Below are positions 5,172 to 54,046 of a DNA stretch of 64,000 nucleotides, piece after piece. The position numbers were made by a program, and so were the translations under genes. Position 1 is the stretch's first letter, and every line of letters starts with the position of its first letter. The notes under the pieces were generated by a model. It was not told the origin of the DNA, did no database searches, and saw only the letters and a list, made by a program, of their open reading frames with translations. Source of the DNA: Allacma fusca (lineage: Eukaryota > Arthropoda > Collembola > Symphypleona > Sminthuridae); the NCBI GenBank assembly GCA_947179485.1, contig OX359247.1, forward strand, positions 3,563,060-3,627,059, written 5' to 3'.

Positions 5172-8100
5172 ATGGCAAAATACATAAAAAATCCTCCAGG
5201 TTTAAAGATCTCAACTAGTGCTCGCTATTTAGTAATTGTTTTATTTAGCATTTTACTGCCTCCAAAGTTAATAGTGGGTTACCCGGGAGGGGCTCCAGTG
5301 TCATCATGCGAGACCATGACACCGGGTCATGGCGTTGAAGCTCAGAAGACGCTTTTTCCTTATTCTCTGACCGTTAGCAAATTGGTGGTAGATCCTGGTG
5401 AAAAGTTGGAAGTCAAACTGGCCTCAACTCCTGGGTCAGGTTCTTTCAAAGGATTTTTAATCGTTGGTAGAACTTCAAATTTCCTCAGAGATACTACTCC
5501 TCATGGGAAATTCACACGTGAGATAACTTCTGGTTCGGGAGGTTATGAAGCCCAAGCTAAAATCCAAGATTGTTTGAATGTTCCAAGCTCTTCTGCTACT
5601 CATGTGAACCGGAACGACAAAGACATGGTTATTTTGGAGTGGGAAGCTCCGCAGGAGGCAGGGGAATATATTATTGTGTAATGACTATTTGTGTAATTAT
5701 TATTATTGCTCAAAGAATTTATGCAAATGGAATGGTTTTAGTAATACTAAATACTCGAAGGTTATTGAGTATTATGTGAAAAATAAAAATTTGTCTGTTT
5801 GAACTATTTCCCATTCAGAGTAACGGTTGTGAAAAACAAGGAAATATTTTGGGTAGCTGCTCCGTCACCTATTATTACAGTTGGTTCAGGGACAGAACCA
5901 GTAAGTAGTTCATTCGCCTAATGATTGTATTTTATGTGCTTACATTACATAGCATTACTTTGATTTGATAGTATGACTGAAAATTACTTATCGACTTATC
6001 CATCACTGTAGGAACCAGGGGACGAGATCAAAGCAATTTATGAAGGATGTTCAAAAACAAAAGGTTGCTTTGGCACTCCGAATGGCTGCCTGGGAACACG
6101 AAACTGTGCCATGTTCGTTACATACACAATCCAGCCTTCTAATGGAAATGCTCAATTTGAGCTGGTTGGGAATGTCAAATCTTTTAATTCCCCAACTTCC
6201 TATGTTGCTCTTGGGCTTTCAGATAATAACAGAATGGTAATAATTATTATTAATTACTCTTAAAAAACGAAAGTTTATATGTTCAATGAATTCTCAGGAT
6301 TGTTGGCATAAATGAGATAACATTTACCTTTCAGGGGGATGACTCAGTATTGGCTTGTCGAATGGACCAAAATACTATTGCCGTTAATGAATACTATACC
6401 AGACCTGAATACCATGGTAACTTCGGAGTTTCTCGGGCAGAGTTTGGAATTATTAGCCAAGCTTCAGGTGTGAATGTGGATGGATTCATATCTTGTAAGT
6501 TCACTGTTCTGCCTGCGTACGAGGTTGATGTGCCCACAGAAAGGGTTAAAAAATCCTGGGATTTAGCTTCAAACAACTATTATTTACTTCTGGCCAGAGG
6601 CAATGATGCTAACGAAGGTGAGTTTGATTGGGAAACATTAGAAGTATTATGGAAGTACTACTTATATTTATTGCCACAAAAAAGCTATTATCGTCTTTAC
6701 TTTTGAATACTTTAGGGGCTCTAGATAAGCATCCCGGGGGAGAGGATCGCATAACGTCTTTGGAGCCAAGGAACATTACTGACGTGAATGGGCCAGAACC
6801 TCCGGTAAATTTAAGAGTTTGAAATACCTTCAAATTTTAAATTTTGAGCTTTTTTAATGACTTGATTCAATATTTTAAAATATTATCTTGTACTATTTGA
6901 AGCCTCCTCCACCTCCACCTCCTCCATCAGAGGGGCTCGTCGGTGTTTACGAAGGTTGCGGAAATACCAAAGGCTGCTTTGGTCTCGGAGTAAGTGGTTG
7001 TGTTGGAAGTAGAAGTTGCGAAATGGTCGTAACATACCAAATTACTGGGAATTCTGCAAATTTGCAACTTGCGGGTAGACAAATCGGCGATTCCAGCTCC
7101 TATGTAGCAGTTGGTCTATCCCGGGATAATATAATGGTACACCCTTGGGCTAGTAATCTGTAAATTTCCACCAATGGGAAAATACGATCAAATTTTAATT
7201 TTGTTACAATTTCATTTTAAGGGAGAAGATCATGTTTTCGGGTGCAGGCTAGACAGGGGAAGTGTGGTCGTCAGTGAATACTATAATCGACCAAACCGAG
7301 ATGGGAACGATGGCGTAGTTAGACGAGACGTGAGCTATGAACAATTCCTTATTCTAAACTCTTGGTCCTACGCGGTAAAAATAAGACAACAATATTATGA
7401 TTTTATGGCTGACTGCGAGTAACTAATTTAAGTAGGTTAAGAGTATTAGTGTAAGACTATTTTATGAACTAATGTAAGCATCTAAAGGTTGCAAGGGCTT
7501 AGGTCAAAATATCGACCTGTATAAAGATTATTATTATATTACATTCTAAACTTAAAATTTTAGATTGAACTCTCAAATCATGTAAAATGTCGAATCATTG
7601 ATCATGAATGATTTTTTTCAGGCTGAAATAATTTCTAACCCGACTGGGACAGCCGAAGACGGATACCTGCTTTGTAGTTTCACAGTAGATAAAACCTATA
7701 CCGTGCCAATTGAGAATAGTAACTCTGTGGATTATGACCTAGGAAATGAAGCCTTCTTTCTGTTACTAGCCCGAGGAACGGAATCTGCTGTTGGTACGGA
7801 CTTCAGTCTTGTTTTTTATCAGCTTAATTTAGCCACCCGAAATTAATTTGTTTACTTTTAAAGAATTCCTGGGCAAGCATCCCTCCGCTACTGATCGTGG
7901 GGCATCCAGTAGCTCCGTCAAATTTTCCGATGCATCCGTGGTTGTGGCTAAATCGAACATCTATATTCAACTCCATGGCTCATTTATGATTCTGGCATGG
8001 CTGCTTTGTGCATCATCAGGGATGTTCACTGCCAGGTACTACAAGCAGACACATACTAGGAGACAACCCTGGGGTTTGGCAATATGGTTCCATGTGAGAT

Positions 8101-9107
8101 CTCACCATGAAATTTTTTAATGATTTGTGCAAACTATGTAATCATCTTCGATTTTTGTTGAATGGAATGTTTCTCTAGTTTAACTGCGATTTATTAATTT
8201 TCTTGAAGATTCACCGAACTTGTATGTCTCTGACGGTACTATTTACAGTAGCAGGATTCGTTTTCATATTTGTTGAAGTCGGTGGGCTGACATCATGGAA
8301 TGGAGGTAACGCTGAAAAATCTCATCCGATCCTGGGAATTATATTGACAGCATTAGCACTTCTTCAAGTCTGTTTAGCACTTGTGCGTCCTCATCCAGGG
8401 AATTCAAAACGCCCACTTTTCAATTGGGCTCATTGGAGTGTTGGAAATTCAGCGCATATTATCGGATGTGAGTATTATTTTAAACTTCATTTTTAATTTC
8501 GTGTCAAAAACTTGGCAGGAAAAAGATATATCTATATCTCCATGACTTTTCTTCCAGTGGCATGCATTTACTTGGCCAACAACCTTCAAAAAACGAATCT
8601 CCAACAAACCAGATATTGGGGAGTTATCACTGGATTTATTGCATACCACATCGTACTGCATATTGCATTAACGGTAAAACTTACGAAACCATTCAAAATT
8701 AAACTTCAACGAATCCCCCTCAAAACTGAAATAATAATTGCTGGAACATTATTTAACAACTTGCAGATCCTGACGTTCCAGGCTGACCAAAAGATGGAAA
8801 TTCAAGAGAAAAAGAGAGCTTTATCAGTTGGACCAATGCCGTCTGCAGGTGTCAGTGGAGAGGCGCCGGTAAGATTCCATTCGTCTAATAGCTCCAAATT
8901 ATTTTAAATAATTTCTAAGTGAACTGTCAAGAAATCTCAGGTTTGAAATAATACACCATAAAACTCATGAATTGTCAACTTTTTAATGTTTATTTACTAT
9001 ACCAGGGAACGGAAATCCGGACAGTAATTTATGCGGCGTACATTCTGGGCGCAGCTTCGACTGCTATTTCTTTGATATATTTTGTGGTGGATGCATTACA
9101 GTCCTAA
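5172..9107 (+). CDS. FRRS1-like reductase with two DOMON domains (Reeler-DOMON-DOMON-cytochrome b561)
   Basis: Thirteen coding exons, 835 residues: 5172-5677, 5819-5900, 6012-6236, 6335-6617, 6716-6804, 6903-7136, 7222-7329, 7622-7793, 7864-8093, 8209-8467, 8558-8673, 8767-8868, 9006-9107. All junctions keep frame. A signal peptide ends near residue 36, before YPGGAP. The Reeler domain spans about 37-190 (FKGFLIVGR, ATHV, EAPQEAGEY, IFW). DOMON1 is about 197-370. A linker leads into a run of Pro (coded by the CCT/CCA start of exon 6). DOMON2 is about 405-571, and b561 about 585-835 with six membrane helices. b561 His residues are in IQLHG, FHIHR, SHPILG and AHWSVG. Both DOMONs keep Met before GDDSV/GEDHV and a following LDKH/LGKH. 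The family moves electrons across a membrane to reduce ferric iron or similar acceptors on the outer face. DOMON1 has lost an intron that its paralogs keep. AATAAA signals lie at 9207 and 9226. Confidence 0.92.
6012..7793 (+). repeat. Tandem DOMON exon cassettes of the 5172 gene
   Basis: DOMON1 is coded by 6012-6236 and 6335-6617, and its trailing His by exon 6716-6804. DOMON2 is coded by 6903-7136, 7222-7329 and 7622-7793, with its trailing His at the start of exon 7864. Both show Y-E-G-C, K-G-C-F-G, C and C near the start, then SYVALGLS/SYVAVGLS and the exon-ending Met. The proteins are clearly homologous but well diverged, so this is not a recent duplication. Confidence 0.85.
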
Positions 9108-25102: not shown

Positions 25103-28100
25103 ATGGAACTAAAAAATCTAGTCAAACGGAGTTGGAGTGGGAGGCTTGTCATTGTCCCATTGATCGCAATCTTTGCCATAAACATCCATTTGGCTGATGG
25201 GTACTCAGGAGGAGCACCGCCGGTTCCTTCAATATGTGAGTCCATGGTCCCTAGCCACGGAGTGGGAGGCCAAAGTAGTCCATCCCCTTATTTAATCAAA
25301 GTTGACAAGACAAGTGTCAATGGAGGCGAGAAAGTTATTGTTACAATCGTTTCCGGACCATCTCAACAACCATTCAAAGGCTTCTTAGTTCAAGCACGGT
25401 CTCAAAACTTTCTCAAAGAGAAAGCAACCAAAGGGAAATTCGTGAAGGAGATTAAAGCTGATGCTGCCTCTCCAGAAATGGCCCAAGTGACGGATTGCTC
25501 GGATGTGAAAGCATCCTCCATGACTCATACGAATAGTTTGGAGAAGAAAGAAGTCCAATTGGAGTGGACAGCACCAAACGAAGATGGGGACTTTGTGATG
25601 GTGTAAGTTTGATGTTTCCCAAATTACTAGATACATAAGTGACTGTCAAATGTGACTTATGAATAATAAAGCCGAGCACAGCATTCATAGGATGTTTTTA
25701 ACGTTGGAAGAACTTGACATTGATAATCAATGATTGATATGTTGTTGCTCTCTATTGCAGTGCAACAGTTGTTGAGAACTTCTCAACTTTCTGGGCAGAG
25801 AAGCCATCTGAGGTGATCAAAGTTAAGCGAAGTGCAGATTTCGTTCCTGAAACCACAACTCCAAAGCCCGATGTAAGTAGCTCTGGGATTTCCCCCAAAA
25901 ATGCATCTAAATTTTTTAATTCCGGGTATTAATTCTAACTTCTTTGACCACCAGAGAGCGACCCCAGAGGTTGAACAGAAGTTGGAAGATATTTACAAGG
26001 ACTGTGGTAACAGTCATGCGGACATTCCCAAAGGATGTTTTGGTCTTCCAAGTGGCTGCATTGGCAATAGAAATTGTCAAATATTTGCAACCTACAGAAT
26101 GGATGGTGACAATGGTGCACGGTTTGAGCTGACTGGAAAGGCCTCATCATATGTGGCAGTAGGGATTTCAAAGGATTCAAGCATGGTGAGCATACATAAT
26201 TAAATCGCTTAAAATATCCTTTTGTTTTGATAATAATTACCTGGAAGAATTTACAACCCAGGGTAGCAAAAATCAATGTCAATGTTATAGTATTATTACA
26301 ATGCTCTCGTGCCTTCTAGGGGGAAGATGCTGTCATTGGGTGCCGTATGGATGGCCGTAACATTGTGGTCGCTGAGTACTTCAACACAAGAGGCAAATCC
26401 AACAGAGGAGTCACGCGAACTCCAGCCGTAAGTTCATACTGATTGTAAACGTAGTTATCATGATTATCGTGCATCACGAAAAATCCACAATTTGAACAAA
26501 TACGTACACTCCAACAATAATAAGGAGGTACTTAGTCTGGTTGCAAATTTGACGAAATGGTCTCTTCAGGTTCTGCCTAGAGATCATATAATTTTTCAAT
26601 TTATCCTTTGTAATTTTAAATGATTGCATTGCTCACAGACCAGTATCATTAGCCATGCTGAAGGAAGCTCTGAGGATGGGTACATCATGTGCAAGTTCAA
26701 TGTCAAGGGCAAATTCGAGGTTCCAAATGCTACCAATACTGGAAATGAAATATCTTTTGACCTAGCCAATGAGAAAGTTCACCTGCTACTTTCAAGGGGA
26801 ACGCAATCTGCCAAAGGTTCGTTTTTTTAGGAATCCAGAGTTTTAAAATCAAAGCAGGCTTCACAGCTTGTAATAGTTTCTAAGGCAGTCCAGACCATAC
26901 CGATCCAGTTTTACAAATAAATGCAATTATTATTATGTTTACAAATTTTTGCAGATTACTTAGGAAGACATCCAACGTCGAATGATCGGGGTGCGGCCCC
27001 AAGTCCCCTTAGTCTCTCTGTGGTTGCTGTTTTGGAAGAAAAGTCTCCAATTTTAATTCAGCTTCATGGTTGTTTTATGATCTTTGCTTGGCTTTTATGC
27101 GCTTCTACGGGAATGTTCACGGCTAGATATTTCAAACAAACGTATGCAGATTCCAAACCCTGTGGTGTCGCCTTTTGGTTTATGGTGAGTTTGAATAATA
27201 TGATTTACATTCTGGGATCTGTAATAACTTTAATATTAAGGATGTATTAATTGTTGCAAATATTTGAGCTTTTAAATTCAAGTCATTATTAATGAAGGAC
27301 CTGTGATCAATGTGTACCTCATCCTTGTAGATTCATCGGTTATGCATGGCATTGACAGTGCTACTAACAATTGCTGCATTTGTCATCATCTTCGTGGAAG
27401 TTCAAGACATCACACCTAATCCCACGGGAGCCATTGCAGAATATTACCATCCCATTCTTGGATTTGTGTTGACAGGACTGGCTATCCTTCAGGTCTTGAT
27501 AGCATTTTGTCGTTGCATGCCTTCGTCCAAGCATCGCTATCTCTTCAATTGGTTTCATTGGCTGGTGGGAAACACGGCACATATTGTGGGAAGTAAGTTG
27601 TTGAGTTTTGATGTCAATGTCAGACTCAGAGTCATTTCATTTTCATGCGAGTTGTAGGTATACACATGTATTTAAAATGCAGCTCCTAATTACTTGGGAT
27701 CAAATGCACATAAAGTAAATACAAGGATAATAAAATGAGCAGTTTTTTATATTTCCGGTAAATTACATGCCAAGTCAATAATAATTGGTTCTATTTGTTG
27801 CAGTTGCGTGCATATTCCTGGCTAATGACTTAAGTAAATCAAATCTTCAAGGTCAGCAAAGATATTGGATAGTGTTGGTGGCTTTCGTAGCTTTCCACGT
27901 TATCCTTCATATCGTCATGTCGGTAAGTTTCAATTTGGCTTGTGATCCAATCTATTTGCATGTCATTAAAATATCCACAATACACATTCTTTTGAATTCA
28001 GACAACAATGTTAATTCAGTCATCGTTTCCGCATTCTTTCTAAATACTTATGTAATTATTTTTGTTCAAATATAGATACATACTCTCAGAGCCGATAAGA

Positions 28101-28371
28101 AAATGGAGATTAGGAACAAAAAGCGGGCCGTTCTTCCTGGGCCTATGAAATTAAGTGGGCTGGATGCTGAAGCTCCAGTAAGTTACCCAAATCCTTTGAA
28201 AACTGATTGAAGTGTTATAAATGTATTTTGATGAGGTTGAGACACTTGAACTAACGGGACTTTTTCTTACAGGGAACTGGATTCCGATCAGCGATCCTAG
28301 CAATTTATTTCCTTGGAGCCGCTGGAACGGCAAGCGCCTTAGTGTACTTTTTTATTGAAAATTTACATTAA
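25103..28371 (+). CDS. FRRS1: Ferric-chelate reductase 1 homolog, canonical Reeler-DOMON-cytochrome b561
   Basis: Ten coding exons, 646 residues: 25103-25602, 25761-25872, 25955-26185, 26320-26427, 26639-26816, 26955-27184, 27331-27592, 27804-27922, 28076-28177, 28273-28371. This is the domain order of animal FRRS1/SDR2; the symbol is a family-level call. A signal peptide ends near residue 33, before YSGGAP. Reeler is about 34-195 (FKGFLVQAR, MTHT, WTAPNEDG, STFW), DOMON about 207-381, and six-helix b561 about 395-646. The DOMON keeps Met in SKDSSM and His in LGRH. b561 His are in IQLHG, MIHR, YHPILG and FHWLVG, with FHVILH in helix 5. Expected role: passing electrons from cytosolic donors such as ascorbate through two membrane hemes and the DOMON heme to outer acceptors such as ferric iron. 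A leader intron is likely. An AATAAA lies at 29068; the true 3' end is uncertain. Confidence 0.94.
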
Positions 28372-31509: not shown

Positions 31510-34500
31510 ATGGCGTCGAGTAATTATAAACGTTTACTCACCCGAATCCTACTAGCACTTCTTACTGGCGTATCTCAAGTTCAGAGTTACTCCCGTGGAG
31601 CTCCAAAGGGAGTATGTGACACAATGGTACCAGTCCATAATCAAGCACTCCCGCAAACGATTCAAAGTCCTTTCGAAGTTCGTTTGAACACGACACAAGT
31701 GAAACCTGGCGGAGTAGTCCAGGTTCAATTAGCTCCACAACAGCGAAACGACGCTTTCAAAGGATTCATGGTCATCGCTAAGGAAGAGTCGAGGTCGGAT
31801 TCGCAACCACAAGGAAGATTTACGATTCCTAAAAATTCAAGTGGATCAGTACAGCATGTTAATTGCGATGATGTTCCTGGAACATCCGTGACGCATACGG
31901 ACAATTCTCCTAAAAATTCCATAGTATTCAACTGGGTGGCCCCTAGAGAGCCCGGAGAGTACAGAATATAGTAAGTTTCCAAATTCCAAAAAGTATTGAT
32001 GACATTTATGGACGCATATTAACTATTCACGTTATACGTCTAAGAATCCATTTTGTTCCAGTGGAACGTTTGTTAAAACGAAGCATGTGTTCTGGGTGAA
32101 CGTACCATCTGACCCAGTCTCAGTACGTGAAACGAGACAAGTAGGACCACCCGTCGCGCCCTCTTACACCAATATCTATTCTGGTTGCGGTCAAAACAGT
32201 TCAACGAGTAAAGGTTGCTTCGGGCTTCCAGAAAAATGTGTAGCAGCAGGGAACTGTGACATGCTCGTAACTTTCAGGAAGGCCTCAAACTCGGAGAATA
32301 CTCTTCAAATTCAGCTGATGGGCCTTTTAACTAATGACACGCATAACAATGGTTACATAGCAGTGGGATTTTCGAAAGATGACCTAATGGTAATGACATT
32401 TTATAAAATTTCTTCAAACGTTCTATGATCAATAATATAATTGAAGTGAGAAGCTAACTGCAAGCCAAATTAATTCCTAATCCAACACATTCCGTCGATT
32501 TTAGGGATCTGACAGCGTCATGGGATGTTTTCAAAGCGATGATGGTACCGTTCACATTCATGAGTATTATAATAACGGTCGAAAGAATGTAGAAGTTGAT
32601 CAGGTAAAATTTCACCAATTGTTCATTGTTTTTGACTGTGGCTCCGTTTTAAGGAAATTGTTTATTTAATTTAGAACACTATTCAATCTCAAGGACGCCA
32701 GGGAGCCCTCATTGATGGTACAATCTCCTGCGAGTTCACTATCGCCGATACAATTGATTTCAGCCGGAGAAATCGGGGTCCACGTTTTGAATTGTTAACG
32801 GAACCACTGCAACTATTACTGGCCAGTGGGGTTACTGATACTGGAAAACACGGTGAGAATAATCACGTTGTGCTTGAAGGGGAATGCCATTGCTTATCTT
32901 ATATTATTTTATAGAAGAATTTGCACGATTTGTTGCATGATTGTTAATTACATTGAATTAAAGTGTCCCTATATATTTACATACTTAGGTACACTTCAGT
33001 ATCATGACAACAACCGGGGAGCATCGAAGACGAAAGCACAACTCGTCAATTACCCAGCCTGGGATCGGCACGACGATAAAGATGATCAAAGTACTGTAGG
33101 AGGGAATGGTGATCATTCTACAGTAGACGAAATTTACAACGGCTGCAGTGCAGATAACTGCTTCGGGATTCCGGGAAATTGCATCGATTCTAGAAATTGT
33201 GAAGTGGTCGGGAAGTTTAGACCCATCAACGGAACAAGTGGTAGGGGTGTGCAGGGAATAGACATTGAGCTGAGTGGGACCACCTCTGAGGAAGGCCCCG
33301 AAGGTAGTTATATAGCTATCGGAATCTCAGAAAATGACAAAATGGTATGTTTCAAAATGTACTAGAAATCGTAGACCGTTACATTTGAATAGTATGAATT
33401 CAATTATTGTTTTTAAAATCAGGATTAGTTGGAGGGGATTCAATGATAATTTTATTGATGGAGCTTATTTTGACCAGGGTACTGATAGTGTCTTTGGATG
33501 CTACGTGAATGGATCGGTAGTCAAGGTCGGAGAATATTACAACATTCCAAGAACCAGTGGCACAAAGAGCTGGGCTGTTTCAAGAGTAATATATTTTTTT
33601 GATTTAGGGATAATTTACTGTATTATCTGCATTGAAATTTCTGAGTGTAACTTTGTATATCATTTATTTCATTTTCCAGGCCAATGGTGATGCTGTTATT
33701 TCAAGTAAATCCGGGAAGTTACAGGATGGCACTATTGGCTGCAGCTTTACTATAAAGCCAGTTATTAATTTGGAGGCCCAACTTCAAAGAACATATGATT
33801 TGAGTAGCGAAAATGTATTTCTCCTGCTGGCAAAGGGCCCATCAGCTAATGATGGTATATTAAATTGGTTGAAAACTCACTGGGAAAAATGTTCGATTGG
33901 AGATTTAAAATTTAACATTTATACTATTTTTTCAGATAAGTTGGGTTACCATTCAACCAAAGCCCCATCTCCAGAGCCATTCCAACTTGCACAAGGGAAG
34001 CAGCGACCCAGGGGAACTTGTTTGGGTATTCCTGCAGGATGCTGTCAGACACAGAAATGTGACGTTATGACAAACTTCGTGGCCAAGAATGAAGGAGGAA
34101 GAGCAACTTACGAATTTTATTTAGAGGGAAAAGTCCAAAAACAACTTTCCAGTTATGTTGCTGTTGGAATCTCAGATGATAATCGAATGGTAATTCCTTG
34201 AAAATATTTCAAACTACAATGGATTTGTCAATGCTATTTGAGACACATAGAAAAGAATCGAAATTGTAATTGTTGACACATCCTTGTGATTAGGGATCCG
34301 ATAGCGTGTTTGCCTGTTACAACAACAACGGAAGCACTGTTACAGTACGGGAATTCTACAACGATCCATCGTACGCCAATTATCCAGTTGTTAGAGTTAG
34401 TTCCAGCATATTTTTAATTATTTAGCAAATTGAAAGCGGACTAGTAGAGCATGGGTAACTGTGTAAGCTAATATGCTACCGATGGTTTTAAAATTTTGTA

Positions 34501-37038
34501 ATAGCTACCCGAGGAAAATATTTTCGTAAGTGCGGCTGGAGTTCTCAATGAAACGCACATGTCGTGTCGATTCACCATCGAGTCTAAAATTAATCTAAAT
34601 GATAGTATCCAGAAAATATTTGATCTCTCCGAGCATCCCTATCATATTCTGATAGCCGAAGGACCAATGAAGGAAAGTGGTAAGTATTGAATGAGGGCTT
34701 GATAAGTTATAAAAATCATTGAATTTCAGTGCTTTACGTTACATTGCTACAAAAATCTCAACTCCTTCACACCCACAGTACTCTACTGTAGAAGCCTTTG
34801 GTATATGTTAGACGATGAAGTTAAAATATGAAAATATAAGTAATTACACTTTATTATTTAAATAATTGTAAACAGGAATGCTGAGCCATCATGTCGCGAG
34901 GCTGGTTTCAGGGGAAAAGATCCTAATTCCAGAAAAATCCGAACTGTCTACAAGTCGATACCAAGAAGATGGACCCAGTTGTGCAGGAACTCCTGCGGGT
35001 TGTTGTCGATCGGGGAGTTGTGTCATAAAATCAAATTTTGCTGCTAAAAGGGTTGGTGGCTCAATAATTGGCTATGACATTCAACTAGAAGGGACCTTGC
35101 AACCCAATCAAAACTACATTGCATTCGGACTATCTCAAGACACTAGCATGGTATTCCACTCTTACTTGAATTCATCCATCCTAGCAATTATTTGCTAAAA
35201 TGCAAACAAAATTTAATAACCTTTATGTAAACTTATAAAGTAATATGTGGTCACTTTGTCCAGGGTTCGGATAGCGTTATTGGATGCTACTTGGATGGAG
35301 ACAGCGTTAGAGTTGGGGAATTTTACAATGAGATTAGAAGCAAGGGCTATTCGAACAAACGAATGAATCGAGTACTTACAAAATGATATGTCCATTGAGA
35401 TGAATTATGAATTGTGGATTTTCAATCCTTACTATATTAGCAAATTGTATTTGTAGAAATCAGATGATGAAGTCATACTGAGCTCAACAGCAGAGCTTAC
35501 GGACGGTCGTATGTCGTGTAGTTTTACCATCAAACCGGAAATAGATCTGATGTCAGAAATAAATGATAAATTTGACCTGTCCAAGTCAATTTATATTCTG
35601 CTAGCTGGAGGACCCATGGAAAGTCCTCAGTCTGGTATGTCGTTTAACAAACATACGGGAAATTTAAAATAAAATTTGTACCATTTCAGTATTCATATTA
35701 AGTACGTAAGGCCTTGATCCCGGTAACACCTGTATTTTTATTGATCTCATAGCCTTAGGTTACCATGGGGCGTTGAAATTTGTGACTGGAGAAAGGATGA
35801 TCATGTCAGAGAAGAGAGACAGTAATAGTAGTAAATCAACAATCAAAATTGAACTTCATGGGGTGTTAATGATAATAGCTTGGGTTTTACTCGCGTCCTT
35901 CGGAAAGTTTACAGCCCGTTACTACAAGAAGGAATTCGTCGGAATTGAAATTTGCGGCAAGGCACTGTGGTTTGTGGTACGAACTGATTTATGTTCCTGC
36001 TAGTGTGTACAATTTAATCGTATGCCTTTAATCCAAGGATGATGTGACCCAAACTTTGTTTTTCTGTGATTTCTCCCTATTCTTGTAGATTCATCAAATT
36101 TGTATGTTCTCAACCGTTGTCATCACTGTCATAGCAATCATTTTAATTTTTGTTGAGATTGATGGCTACACTCCAGCAGTTGCTACAGCAGAAAAATATC
36201 ATCCTATTTTGGGCCTAATAGTATTTGTCCTCTCAATCCTTCAAGTATTCATTGCATTTTTCCGCTGCGACCCAGGCTCGGATCACCGTATTATCTTCAA
36301 CTGGGTTCACTGGACTATTGGCACTGCTTGCCATTGGTTTGGAAGTAAACAGTTTTATTCTTGAATAAACTACAAATAAGTATTTAAATTAAGAAATATT
36401 TGCTCAGCTTAGATTAATATATTTAATATTTATAGTCGCCTGCATTTTCTTCTCGGCTGACCTTAAAAAAGCTAATCTTCAAAATCATGGAACCTACTGG
36501 TCAACGATAATTGCATTTGTGATCTTCCACTGTATTTTGCATGTTTCAATGTCGGTAAGTGTTTCACCCGAAAATAGTTTATTTATGTACAGGGAGTACC
36601 TACTATATACTTGAGATTTCCAATTTCTCTCCAAATTGATTTCGTTAGGGACATAGGATGGAATTGCAAAGGGTATATCTGCTTCCTCATAACCCAATTT
36701 AATTTTTTTTGCAACTTCTCTAGTTTCATACCTTTTTTATGGATAACAAAAATATAATCACTCGGGCTTTGCAACCCGGACCTTTGAAATCGAATGCCCA
36801 GGAGAAGGTAATACAAGACTAAATTATTACTCAAATTTTATTATGTATTTTCAAATCTTTCCTTATTATCTATGCAAAAATAAGTAATTTCTACAGTTGT
36901 AACCATTGTTGCTTTCATAAATATTTCCAGGACTCATGTGAGGGTTCGCGTTACAGCGAATTGATTCTTCTCGCGGAATTAGTTGGAGCCACTGTTTCCT
37001 CTGCCATCTTAGTATATTGTGTTTGTGAAAGCGTGTAG
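31510..37038 (+). CDS. FRRS1-like protein with four tandem DOMON domains (Reeler-DOMONx4-cytochrome b561)
   Basis: Eighteen coding exons, 1195 residues: 31510-31970, 32062-32389, 32505-32603, 32675-32852, 32989-33344, 33478-33585, 33680-33854, 33936-34189, 34294-34395, 34505-34679, 34876-35150, 35264-35371, 35457-35634, 35753-35976, 36089-36344, 36436-36554, 36724-36807, 36931-37038. Frame is kept throughout. The ATG at 31510 has a good context (CAAAATGG). A signal peptide ends near residue 26, before YSRGAP. Reeler is about 27-180. The DOMONs are about 195-360, 385-572, 585-750 and 770-936; each keeps the exon-ending Met and a following LxxH (LQYH, LGYH, LSHH, LGYH). The six-helix b561 is about 950-1195, with His in IELHG, IHQ, YHPILG and VHWTIG. 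Animal FRRS1 normally has one DOMON. If every site binds heme, this is a six-heme transmembrane relay. AATAAA is at 37281. Confidence 0.92.
32062..35634 (+). repeat. Four tandem three-exon DOMON cassettes
   Basis: Cassettes are 32062-32852, 32989-33854, 33936-34679 and 34876-35634. In each the first exon ends on Met (phase 0), the second is 99-108 bases (phase 0), and the third is 175-178 bases ending in phase 1. Cassettes 2-4 also begin in phase 1, so each is a symmetrical 1-1 module that can be copied without shifting the frame. Cassettes 3 and 4 share CLGIPAGCC/CAGTPAGCC and lack the leading Y-x-G-C of the other DOMONs, so they are probably sisters. Confidence 0.85.

Positions 37039-53913: not shown

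Positions 53914-54046
<133 letters not shown>

Follow-up and report, generated by a model that had tools for sequence, protein, structure and literature searches.

Can an animal cytochrome b561 protein carry four consecutive DOMON domains on a single membrane module and, if so, what might the additional domains do? The question is raised by a gene of the collembolan Allacma fusca, here denoted gene E, which occupies positions 31510 to 37038 on the + strand of a 64,000-nucleotide stretch of contig OX359247.1 (assembly GCA_947179485.1, positions 3,563,060 to 3,627,059; hereafter the window, to which coordinates refer). A preliminary description of the window, made from the letters alone, proposed an FRRS1-like protein with a Reeler domain, four DOMONs and six-helix b561, which, should all four DOMONs bind heme and b561 bind two, would be a six-heme wire reaching far from the membrane or docking several partners. 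Here we show that gene E is an animal-type CYBDOM of the FRRS1/CG8399 kind, with four DOMONs instead of the usual one. It is the last of five related genes, A to E, all on the + strand, with DOMON counts of 2, 1, 1, 0 and 4, a same-strand array that the preliminary description had missed.

Gene E encodes a Reeler domain, four DOMONs and cytochrome b561

The first ATG of gene E is at 31510 and the stop codon ends at 37038. As originally proposed, 18 exons join in frame over this region: all 17 introns (71–196 bp) have GT...AG borders, and the resulting frame of 1195 codons, encoding 1195 amino acids (aa), contains no internal stop or frameshift. We infer the splicing from the splice signals and the reading frame. 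The features are as follows.

31510..37038, + strand: gene E, 18-exon CYBDOM gene (signal peptide judged by eye, Reeler, four DOMONs, b561), 1195 aa
31615..32098, + strand: Reeler domain, aa 36-166, exons 1-2 (Pfam; genome search match 31615-31965)
32174..33041, + strand: DOMON1, aa 192-373, exons 2-5, Met263 and His361 (Pfam, alignment)
33132..33988, + strand: DOMON2, aa 404-586, exons 5-8, Met474 and His574 (Pfam, alignment)
33998..34928, + strand: DOMON3, aa 590-763, exons 8-11, Met653 and His751 (Pfam, alignment)
34965..35802, + strand: DOMON4, aa 776-949, exons 11-14, Met837 and His937 (Pfam, alignment)
35833..37035, + strand: cytochrome b561 module, His968, His1009, His1045 and His1081 (Pfam, alignment)

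Pfam search places all these domains on one chain, with the DOMONs N-terminal to b561 as in other CYBDOMs. In the whole protein, DOMON is detected in four separate stretches (E 2.1e-40) and Reeler at E 2.2e-30. When the domains are given alone, b561 reaches 23.6 bits (E 6.5e-5; cut-off 23), and three of the four DOMONs (DOMON1, 3 and 4: 44.5, 46.0 and 40.3 bits) exceed the 32.7-bit cut-off; DOMON2, which alone is under it, can be aligned with the other DOMONs along its length. In a control tblastn search (threshold E 10), the canonical gene C yielded 11 matches to a 6.5-kb gene E stretch (best E 5.5e-30), compared to a single match (E 0.95) summed over 200 dinucleotide-preserving shuffles of that stretch. 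The six-helix b561 of the preliminary description is borne out for five helices, which pass a simple hydropathy threshold, but not for the helix around the last heme His, which falls below it. A signal peptide, judged by eye from hydropathy, is plausible; the best 11-residue value (2.11, at aa 9) is weaker than in genes A–D.

The four DOMONs share 29–40% pairwise identity, which rules out a recent assembly duplication; the contig that carries the array is 66 Mb long. A pseudogene was rejected as well, the frame being open throughout its 1195 codons. Intron 7 (33855-33935) is 81 bp long, a multiple of 3, and contains no in-frame stops, such that its retention would add 27 residues ahead of the DOMON2 His.

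Putative heme ligands are present in all four DOMONs

When the eight DOMONs from genes A, B, C and E are aligned, the Met of SxDxxMGxD and a later His (alignment columns M72 and H170) are invariant, so that each of the four gene E DOMONs has the pair. An alignment with cellobiose dehydrogenase identifies this Met and His as the probable ligands of b-heme (PMC10691727). Four b561 His, predicted to coordinate two b-hemes, are aligned across the same genes. The potential for six b-hemes in the gene E protein, as previously suggested, is thus supported by the predicted ligands.

Within b561, Arg H1+20, Gly H3+4, Gln H3+14, Ala H3+18 and Gly H4+4 of gene E fit the residues described for the CG8399 group, of which Ala H3+18 is described as CG8399-specific (PMC10691727). 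P1069, R1074 and N1078 have the same offsets from His1081 as P302, R307 and N311 from H314 in Arabidopsis HYP1, where these residues hold cytosolic ascorbate in a docking model (PMC10784544); the comparison covers these three residues, and K234 and R299 of HYP1 are also named there as ascorbate-binding equivalents. The distance between the DOMON His and the first b561 His is 31 residues for DOMON4 of gene E, 32 in genes A and C, and 29 in gene B. Given this near-equal spacing, DOMON4 probably docks on b561 like the single DOMON of an ordinary paralogue.

The gene E DOMONs differ at other positions. All four contain six Cys, and DOMON3 and DOMON4 have a swap in common, in which the first Cys is gone and a new Cys appears beside a conserved one. 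The proposed metal site SxDxxMGxD, with an Asp that is called strictly conserved (PMC10691727), is intact in three of the four, and the residue preceding the Met in DOMON1–4 is L, K, R and S, respectively. The linkers, from the His to the first Cys of the next DOMON, comprise 47 residues between DOMON1 and DOMON2 (an acidic linker), 23 between DOMON2 and DOMON3, and 30 between DOMON3 and DOMON4.

A same-strand array of paralogues

The other four genes of the array are listed below.

5172..9107, + strand: gene A, Reeler-DOMON-DOMON-b561, 835 aa
9820..12649, + strand: gene B, DOMON (26.4 bits, under the Pfam cut-off) and b561 (by alignment), 530 aa; exons 1 and 2 tentative
25103..28371, + strand: gene C, canonical Reeler-DOMON-b561, 646 aa
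29648..30377, + strand: gene D, Reeler only, 203 aa

The b561 modules of genes A, B and C, recognised by alignment to gene E, yield no Pfam score at E 0.01, and no Reeler was found in gene B. A distance of 12.4 kb that contains no relative separates genes B and C, and tblastn of all five proteins on the window gave 175 matches at E 1e-3, none of them outside the five genes. The two DOMONs of gene A are linked by a proline run, and Met and His are retained in both; one motif Asp and the middle intron are absent from the first. In gene B, Ser takes the place of P and N at the predicted ascorbate positions, and Asn follows the Met in the DOMON motif. Gene D, which sits between the canonical gene C and the four-DOMON gene E, has a basic tail rich in Ser, Lys and His; Reeler-only immune proteins have been described in arthropods.

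Elsewhere in the window, ten other open reading frames have no Pfam match at E 0.001, and there are no Rfam or tRNA matches. On the minus strand, tandem 42/84/105-bp repeats lie at 706-1033 inside a long open frame without a Pfam match, and a perfect GT dinucleotide run of 64 copies occupies 53917-54044.

Origin of the additional DOMONs

In each of the eight DOMONs (genes A, B, C and E), the Met codon is immediately followed by an intron, and another, of phase 1, lies 11–14 nt ahead of the His codon; the third, middle intron is absent from the first DOMON of gene A. From these common positions, the repeat unit of gene E can be delineated as three exons with phase-1 ends, present as three cassettes.

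32989..33854, + strand: cassette 1, exons 5-7, 639 coding nt (213 codons)
33936..34679, + strand: cassette 2, exons 8-10, 531 coding nt (177 codons)
34876..35634, + strand: cassette 3, exons 11-13, 561 coding nt (187 codons)

In an unrooted DOMON tree, the gene E domains group together as E1,(E2,(E3,E4)), with Shimodaira-Hasegawa-like approximate likelihood ratio/ultrafast bootstrap (SH-aLRT/UFBoot) support of 86/88, 89/87 and 94/98; B1 is placed beside this group (93/89) and A2 beside C1 (93/87). The tree constrained to hold the gene E DOMONs together is the same as that from the free search. The gene E DOMONs look like stepwise copies of the three-exon phase-1 cassette, for which we infer the order of duplication. 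Genes A and E probably gained DOMONs separately, given that an extra phase-0 intron is present in the linker ahead of the second DOMON of gene A and none in gene E. Skipping of cassettes in all five combinations tested leaves the frame open to the normal stop; with all three skipped, a 618-aa protein with one DOMON results.

Proposed function and alternative explanations

By analogy with characterised relatives, the gene E product is most likely a metalloreductase that is driven by ascorbate and presents four heme heads outside the cell. Ferric iron is reduced in vitro by CG8399 of the fly and SDR2 of the mouse (PMC10691727). Arabidopsis HYP1 transfers ascorbate electrons to acceptors on the outside; both trans-membrane currents and Fe3+ reduction are known for HYP1, and the Fe-Fe step from b561 to DOMON is 20.9 Å in its model (PMC10784544). 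As a CYBDOM of the CG8399/SDR2 (FRRS1) group, the gene E protein would reside in the plasma membrane with its DOMONs outside the cell, and the two hemes of b561 would be supplied with electrons, one at a time, by cytosolic ascorbate. DOMON4, at near-paralogue spacing from b561, would accept these electrons onto its Met/His heme. From there they would pass to DOMON3, 2 and 1 as these domains move relative to one another; alternatively, DOMON3, 2 and 1 would dock and reduce separate acceptors, namely, Fe3+/Cu2+ chelates or protein partners. The outcome would be one membrane reductase with several extracellular heme heads that serve as an electron buffer with multiple outlets, the extra heads having arisen by stepwise in-gene duplication of the three-exon cassette within an array of relatives. 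Heme loading, membrane topology, the ascorbate donor, the electron path and the substrate are all predictions of this scheme. To the ascorbate-driven plasma-membrane CYBDOM reductase with several extracellular heme heads, the best explanation taken as a whole, we would give an even chance of being correct. A bolder reading, in which a six-b-heme trans-membrane relay made by an animal has its extracellular length and number of outlets set by the copies of the DOMON cassette (possibly by splicing), that is, a modular, evolvable conduit built of b-hemes and not of c-hemes, appears doubtful.

Several observations weigh against the multi-headed reductase and the history proposed for it. DOMON2 given alone scores 29.1 bits (E 1.2e-6), under the Pfam cut-off, as does Cytochrom_B561 in the whole protein (19 bits against 23; E 0.0017), and among solved structures, searches with the DOMON profile and the b561 sequence returned no matches and that with the Reeler sequence one chance match (E 0.95). 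DOMON2 has Asn in place of the first Asp of SxDxxMGxD and so may reduce no metal. At H4+18, gene E has Ser where the CG8399 group, and genes A, B and C, have Ala, a described group trait that is not taken here as defining. With regard to function, what CG8399 and SDR2 do in vivo is described as unknown (PMC10691727), and in Drosophila, intestinal ferric reductase activity has been shown for other b561 proteins, Fire and Fire-like (PMC12218971). With regard to origin, support for the gene E DOMON group is moderate (86/88) in a tree without an outside root, and the nearest relative of gene E is gene B by DOMONs (93/89), gene C by b561 (87/80) and gene D by Reeler (51/63), so that the three domain trees disagree on the history of the whole gene. 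By the Nei-Gojobori (NG86) method, the synonymous distance (dS) is saturated and incalculable in 27 of the 40 pairs and 1.8–3.9 in the other 13, so that the selection on these sequences suggested by nonsynonymous distances (dN) of 0.35–0.92 is to be read qualitatively.

The main rival explanation is that only DOMON4 transfers electrons, whereas DOMON1–3 together with Reeler form a stalk or an array for adhesion or ligand binding, in which heme or some other ligand is bound with no electron relay. The canonical spacing to b561, which is found in DOMON4 alone, fits such an arrangement, as does the variation of DOMON1–3 at interface and motif positions (the pre-Met residue and the motif Asp that DOMON2 is short of); furthermore, the DOMON heme faces b561 in the published model of CG8399, which leaves a second DOMON no obvious site (PMC10691727). 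However, the retention of Met and His in all four DOMONs despite 29–40% identity goes beyond the needs of a spacer, and these ligands are reportedly absent from sugar-binding DOMONs (PMC10691727), so we consider the stalk possible but somewhat unlikely. The opposite extreme is the six-heme wire of the preliminary description, in which electrons from ascorbate would travel along fixed DOMON-DOMON contacts, over the four hemes outside the cell, to an acceptor far away in cuticle, mucus or matrix. Indeed, none of the ligands for six hemes is missing, the DOMON2-3 and DOMON3-4 linkers are short, comparable to the 31 residues from the DOMON4 His to b561, and the DOMON of Arabidopsis CRR has been proposed to reach acceptors further from the membrane or to dock particular substrates (PMC10784552). 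Nevertheless, one heme is expected per DOMON, a rigid chain needs every heme edge close to two neighbours, and the linker between DOMON1 and DOMON2 is longer and acidic. As the DOMON heme lies against the b561 face in the fly model, mobile heads or several outlets seem preferable: a metalloreductase that is driven by ascorbate and releases electrons through several heads is more likely than the rigid wire, which we deem improbable, and the far-reaching wire originally envisaged finds no support here.

Two further alternatives concern the transcript and the gene model. The preliminary description had allowed that the DOMON cassettes are alternative exons, and one could imagine a splice-tuned protein in which cassettes are skipped, so that the majority of transcripts encode one or two DOMONs and few encode all four. 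In-frame skipping is possible, with phase-1 ends in all three cassettes and an open frame in all five skips; moreover, the Met and His of each DOMON are in different exons, such that a skip would produce a chimeric DOMON with both ligands. However, introns at identical Met/His positions are found in the single-DOMON genes B and C, so that the phases are inherited from the family and provide no evidence of regulated skipping; splice tuning accordingly seems unlikely. That the stretch represents several genes, or a decaying gene, wrongly joined would fit the one uncertain exon border, at the stop-free 81-bp intron 7, but is highly improbable given the single Reeler at the start and the single b561 at the end, the short introns, the undisturbed frame, and the Met/His introns placed as in the paralogues in all eight DOMONs. 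Two or more separate genes, the other caveat of the preliminary description, are unlikely because the longest internal gap is 196 bp, the phases are in frame, and aa 60-955 include no 11-residue window with signal-peptide-like hydropathy; we accordingly treat gene E as one gene.

Related domains in the rest of the genome

The whole genome (392.7 Mb, 91 contigs) was searched, with the window corresponding to C10:3563060-3627059. The b561 of gene C gave 24 exon matches at E 0.001, of which 14 are in genes A, B, C and E; the other 10 are on C5, C8, C9 and C10, the best of them on C5 (8.7e-14) and the others at 1.5e-7 or weaker. Reeler matched 11 times, four of these being genes A, C, D and E, and none of the other seven is within 1 Mb of any b561 match. 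Thus, at the search sensitivity used, all genes of this genome that combine Reeler and b561 lie in the window.

Four of the other b561 neighbourhoods (L017, L019, L020 and L021) were searched with Pfam at E 0.01. L017 (346-2772, minus strand, on C5), the site of the 8.7e-14 match, contains an intronless 809-aa open frame with one DOMON (32.7 bits, at the cut-off), b561 (28.3 bits) and a long basic tail, possibly a divergent or retrocopied CYBDOM. No DOMON was found in the frames of L019 and L020, nor any match in the one frame scanned in L021, and several DOMONs were seen at none of the four loci.

The DOMON family search produced at least 152 exon matches across the genome, the DOMONs of the window not being among the matches listed, with loci on contigs C1, C8 and C10. 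In two of these loci, L005 and L008, Cu2_monooxygen exons follow the DOMON (28.5 and 32.8 bits, respectively; cut-off 30), a pattern suggesting that MOXD1/DBH-like copper monooxygenases have expanded greatly. At L022 (3462-7001) and L023 (G000:C10:34.94-34.97 Mb), mucin-like frames of great length, with Thr/Pro/Glu repeats (TEPTVTQPPTTDPATS and TTEPATTEPPTTEPA), run straight into DOMON-like exons, that is, DOMON proteins with repeat stalks. Searches of two non-animal collections confirmed no relatives, either of gene C among viral contigs (11 pattern matches) or of its b561 among prokaryotes (36 pattern matches).

Known relatives and implications

The known CYBDOM family thus gains a four-DOMON form; the number of DOMONs does not define the group but is the novelty. 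Gene E shares with CG8399 and FRRS1 (SDR2) the Reeler, the heme-type DOMON (Met and His) and the b561 group residues (Arg H1+20, Gln H3+14, Ala H3+18), in the same order, and differs in having four DOMONs versus one, Ser at H4+18, and the Cys swap of DOMON3 and DOMON4. Among 888 CYBDOMs in an insect survey, 19 have two DOMONs (aphids, other Hemiptera and two Coleoptera), and both DOMONs of Acyrthosiphon pisum keep Met and His, as in gene E (PMC10691727). Such proteins resemble gene E in combining more than one DOMON with b561, at a count equal to that of gene A. The main text of the survey contains neither 'three DOMON' nor 'four DOMON', and among the open-licence papers searched we encountered none that describes a b561 protein of an animal with three or more DOMONs; databases may hold undescribed four-DOMON relatives. 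The arrangement was initially presented as undescribed in animals, which holds for four DOMONs with b561 within those papers, but not for multiple DOMONs as such.

Beyond animals, plant CYBDOMs can carry one or more DOMONs (PMC10784544). Arabidopsis HYP1 and CRR likewise combine b561 with an extracellular heme-type DOMON, and gene E matches HYP1 at the P/R/N positions; in contrast to gene E, they have one DOMON and no Reeler described, and their function was tested, whereas gene E is known from sequence. The cytochrome domain of cellobiose dehydrogenase and plant AIR12 have the DOMON-type b-heme with Met/His ligation but consist of a single DOMON that is not fused to b561 (AIR12 being glycosylphosphatidylinositol-anchored), unlike gene E. 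The 'three DOMON' wording for a coral refers to three genes (PMC3204972), and one or two DOMONs occur on a different ferric reductase family (PMC3591440).

CYBDOM genes number one per genome in human, mouse and fly (PMC10784552), and the CG8399 group comprises ten proteins in nine insects (PMC10691727); compared to these numbers, four CYBDOM genes in a single array are unusual. The function of the DOMON in CYBDOMs has been called unknown (PMC10691727), and in HYP1, the need for the DOMON ligands could not be tested because the ligand mutants were mislocalised (PMC10784544). The four DOMON modules of gene E may give cell-derived electrons several extracellular outlets, and the series of 2, 1, 1, 0 and 4 DOMONs on related proteins within 32 kb would allow the contribution of each added heme module to be tested.

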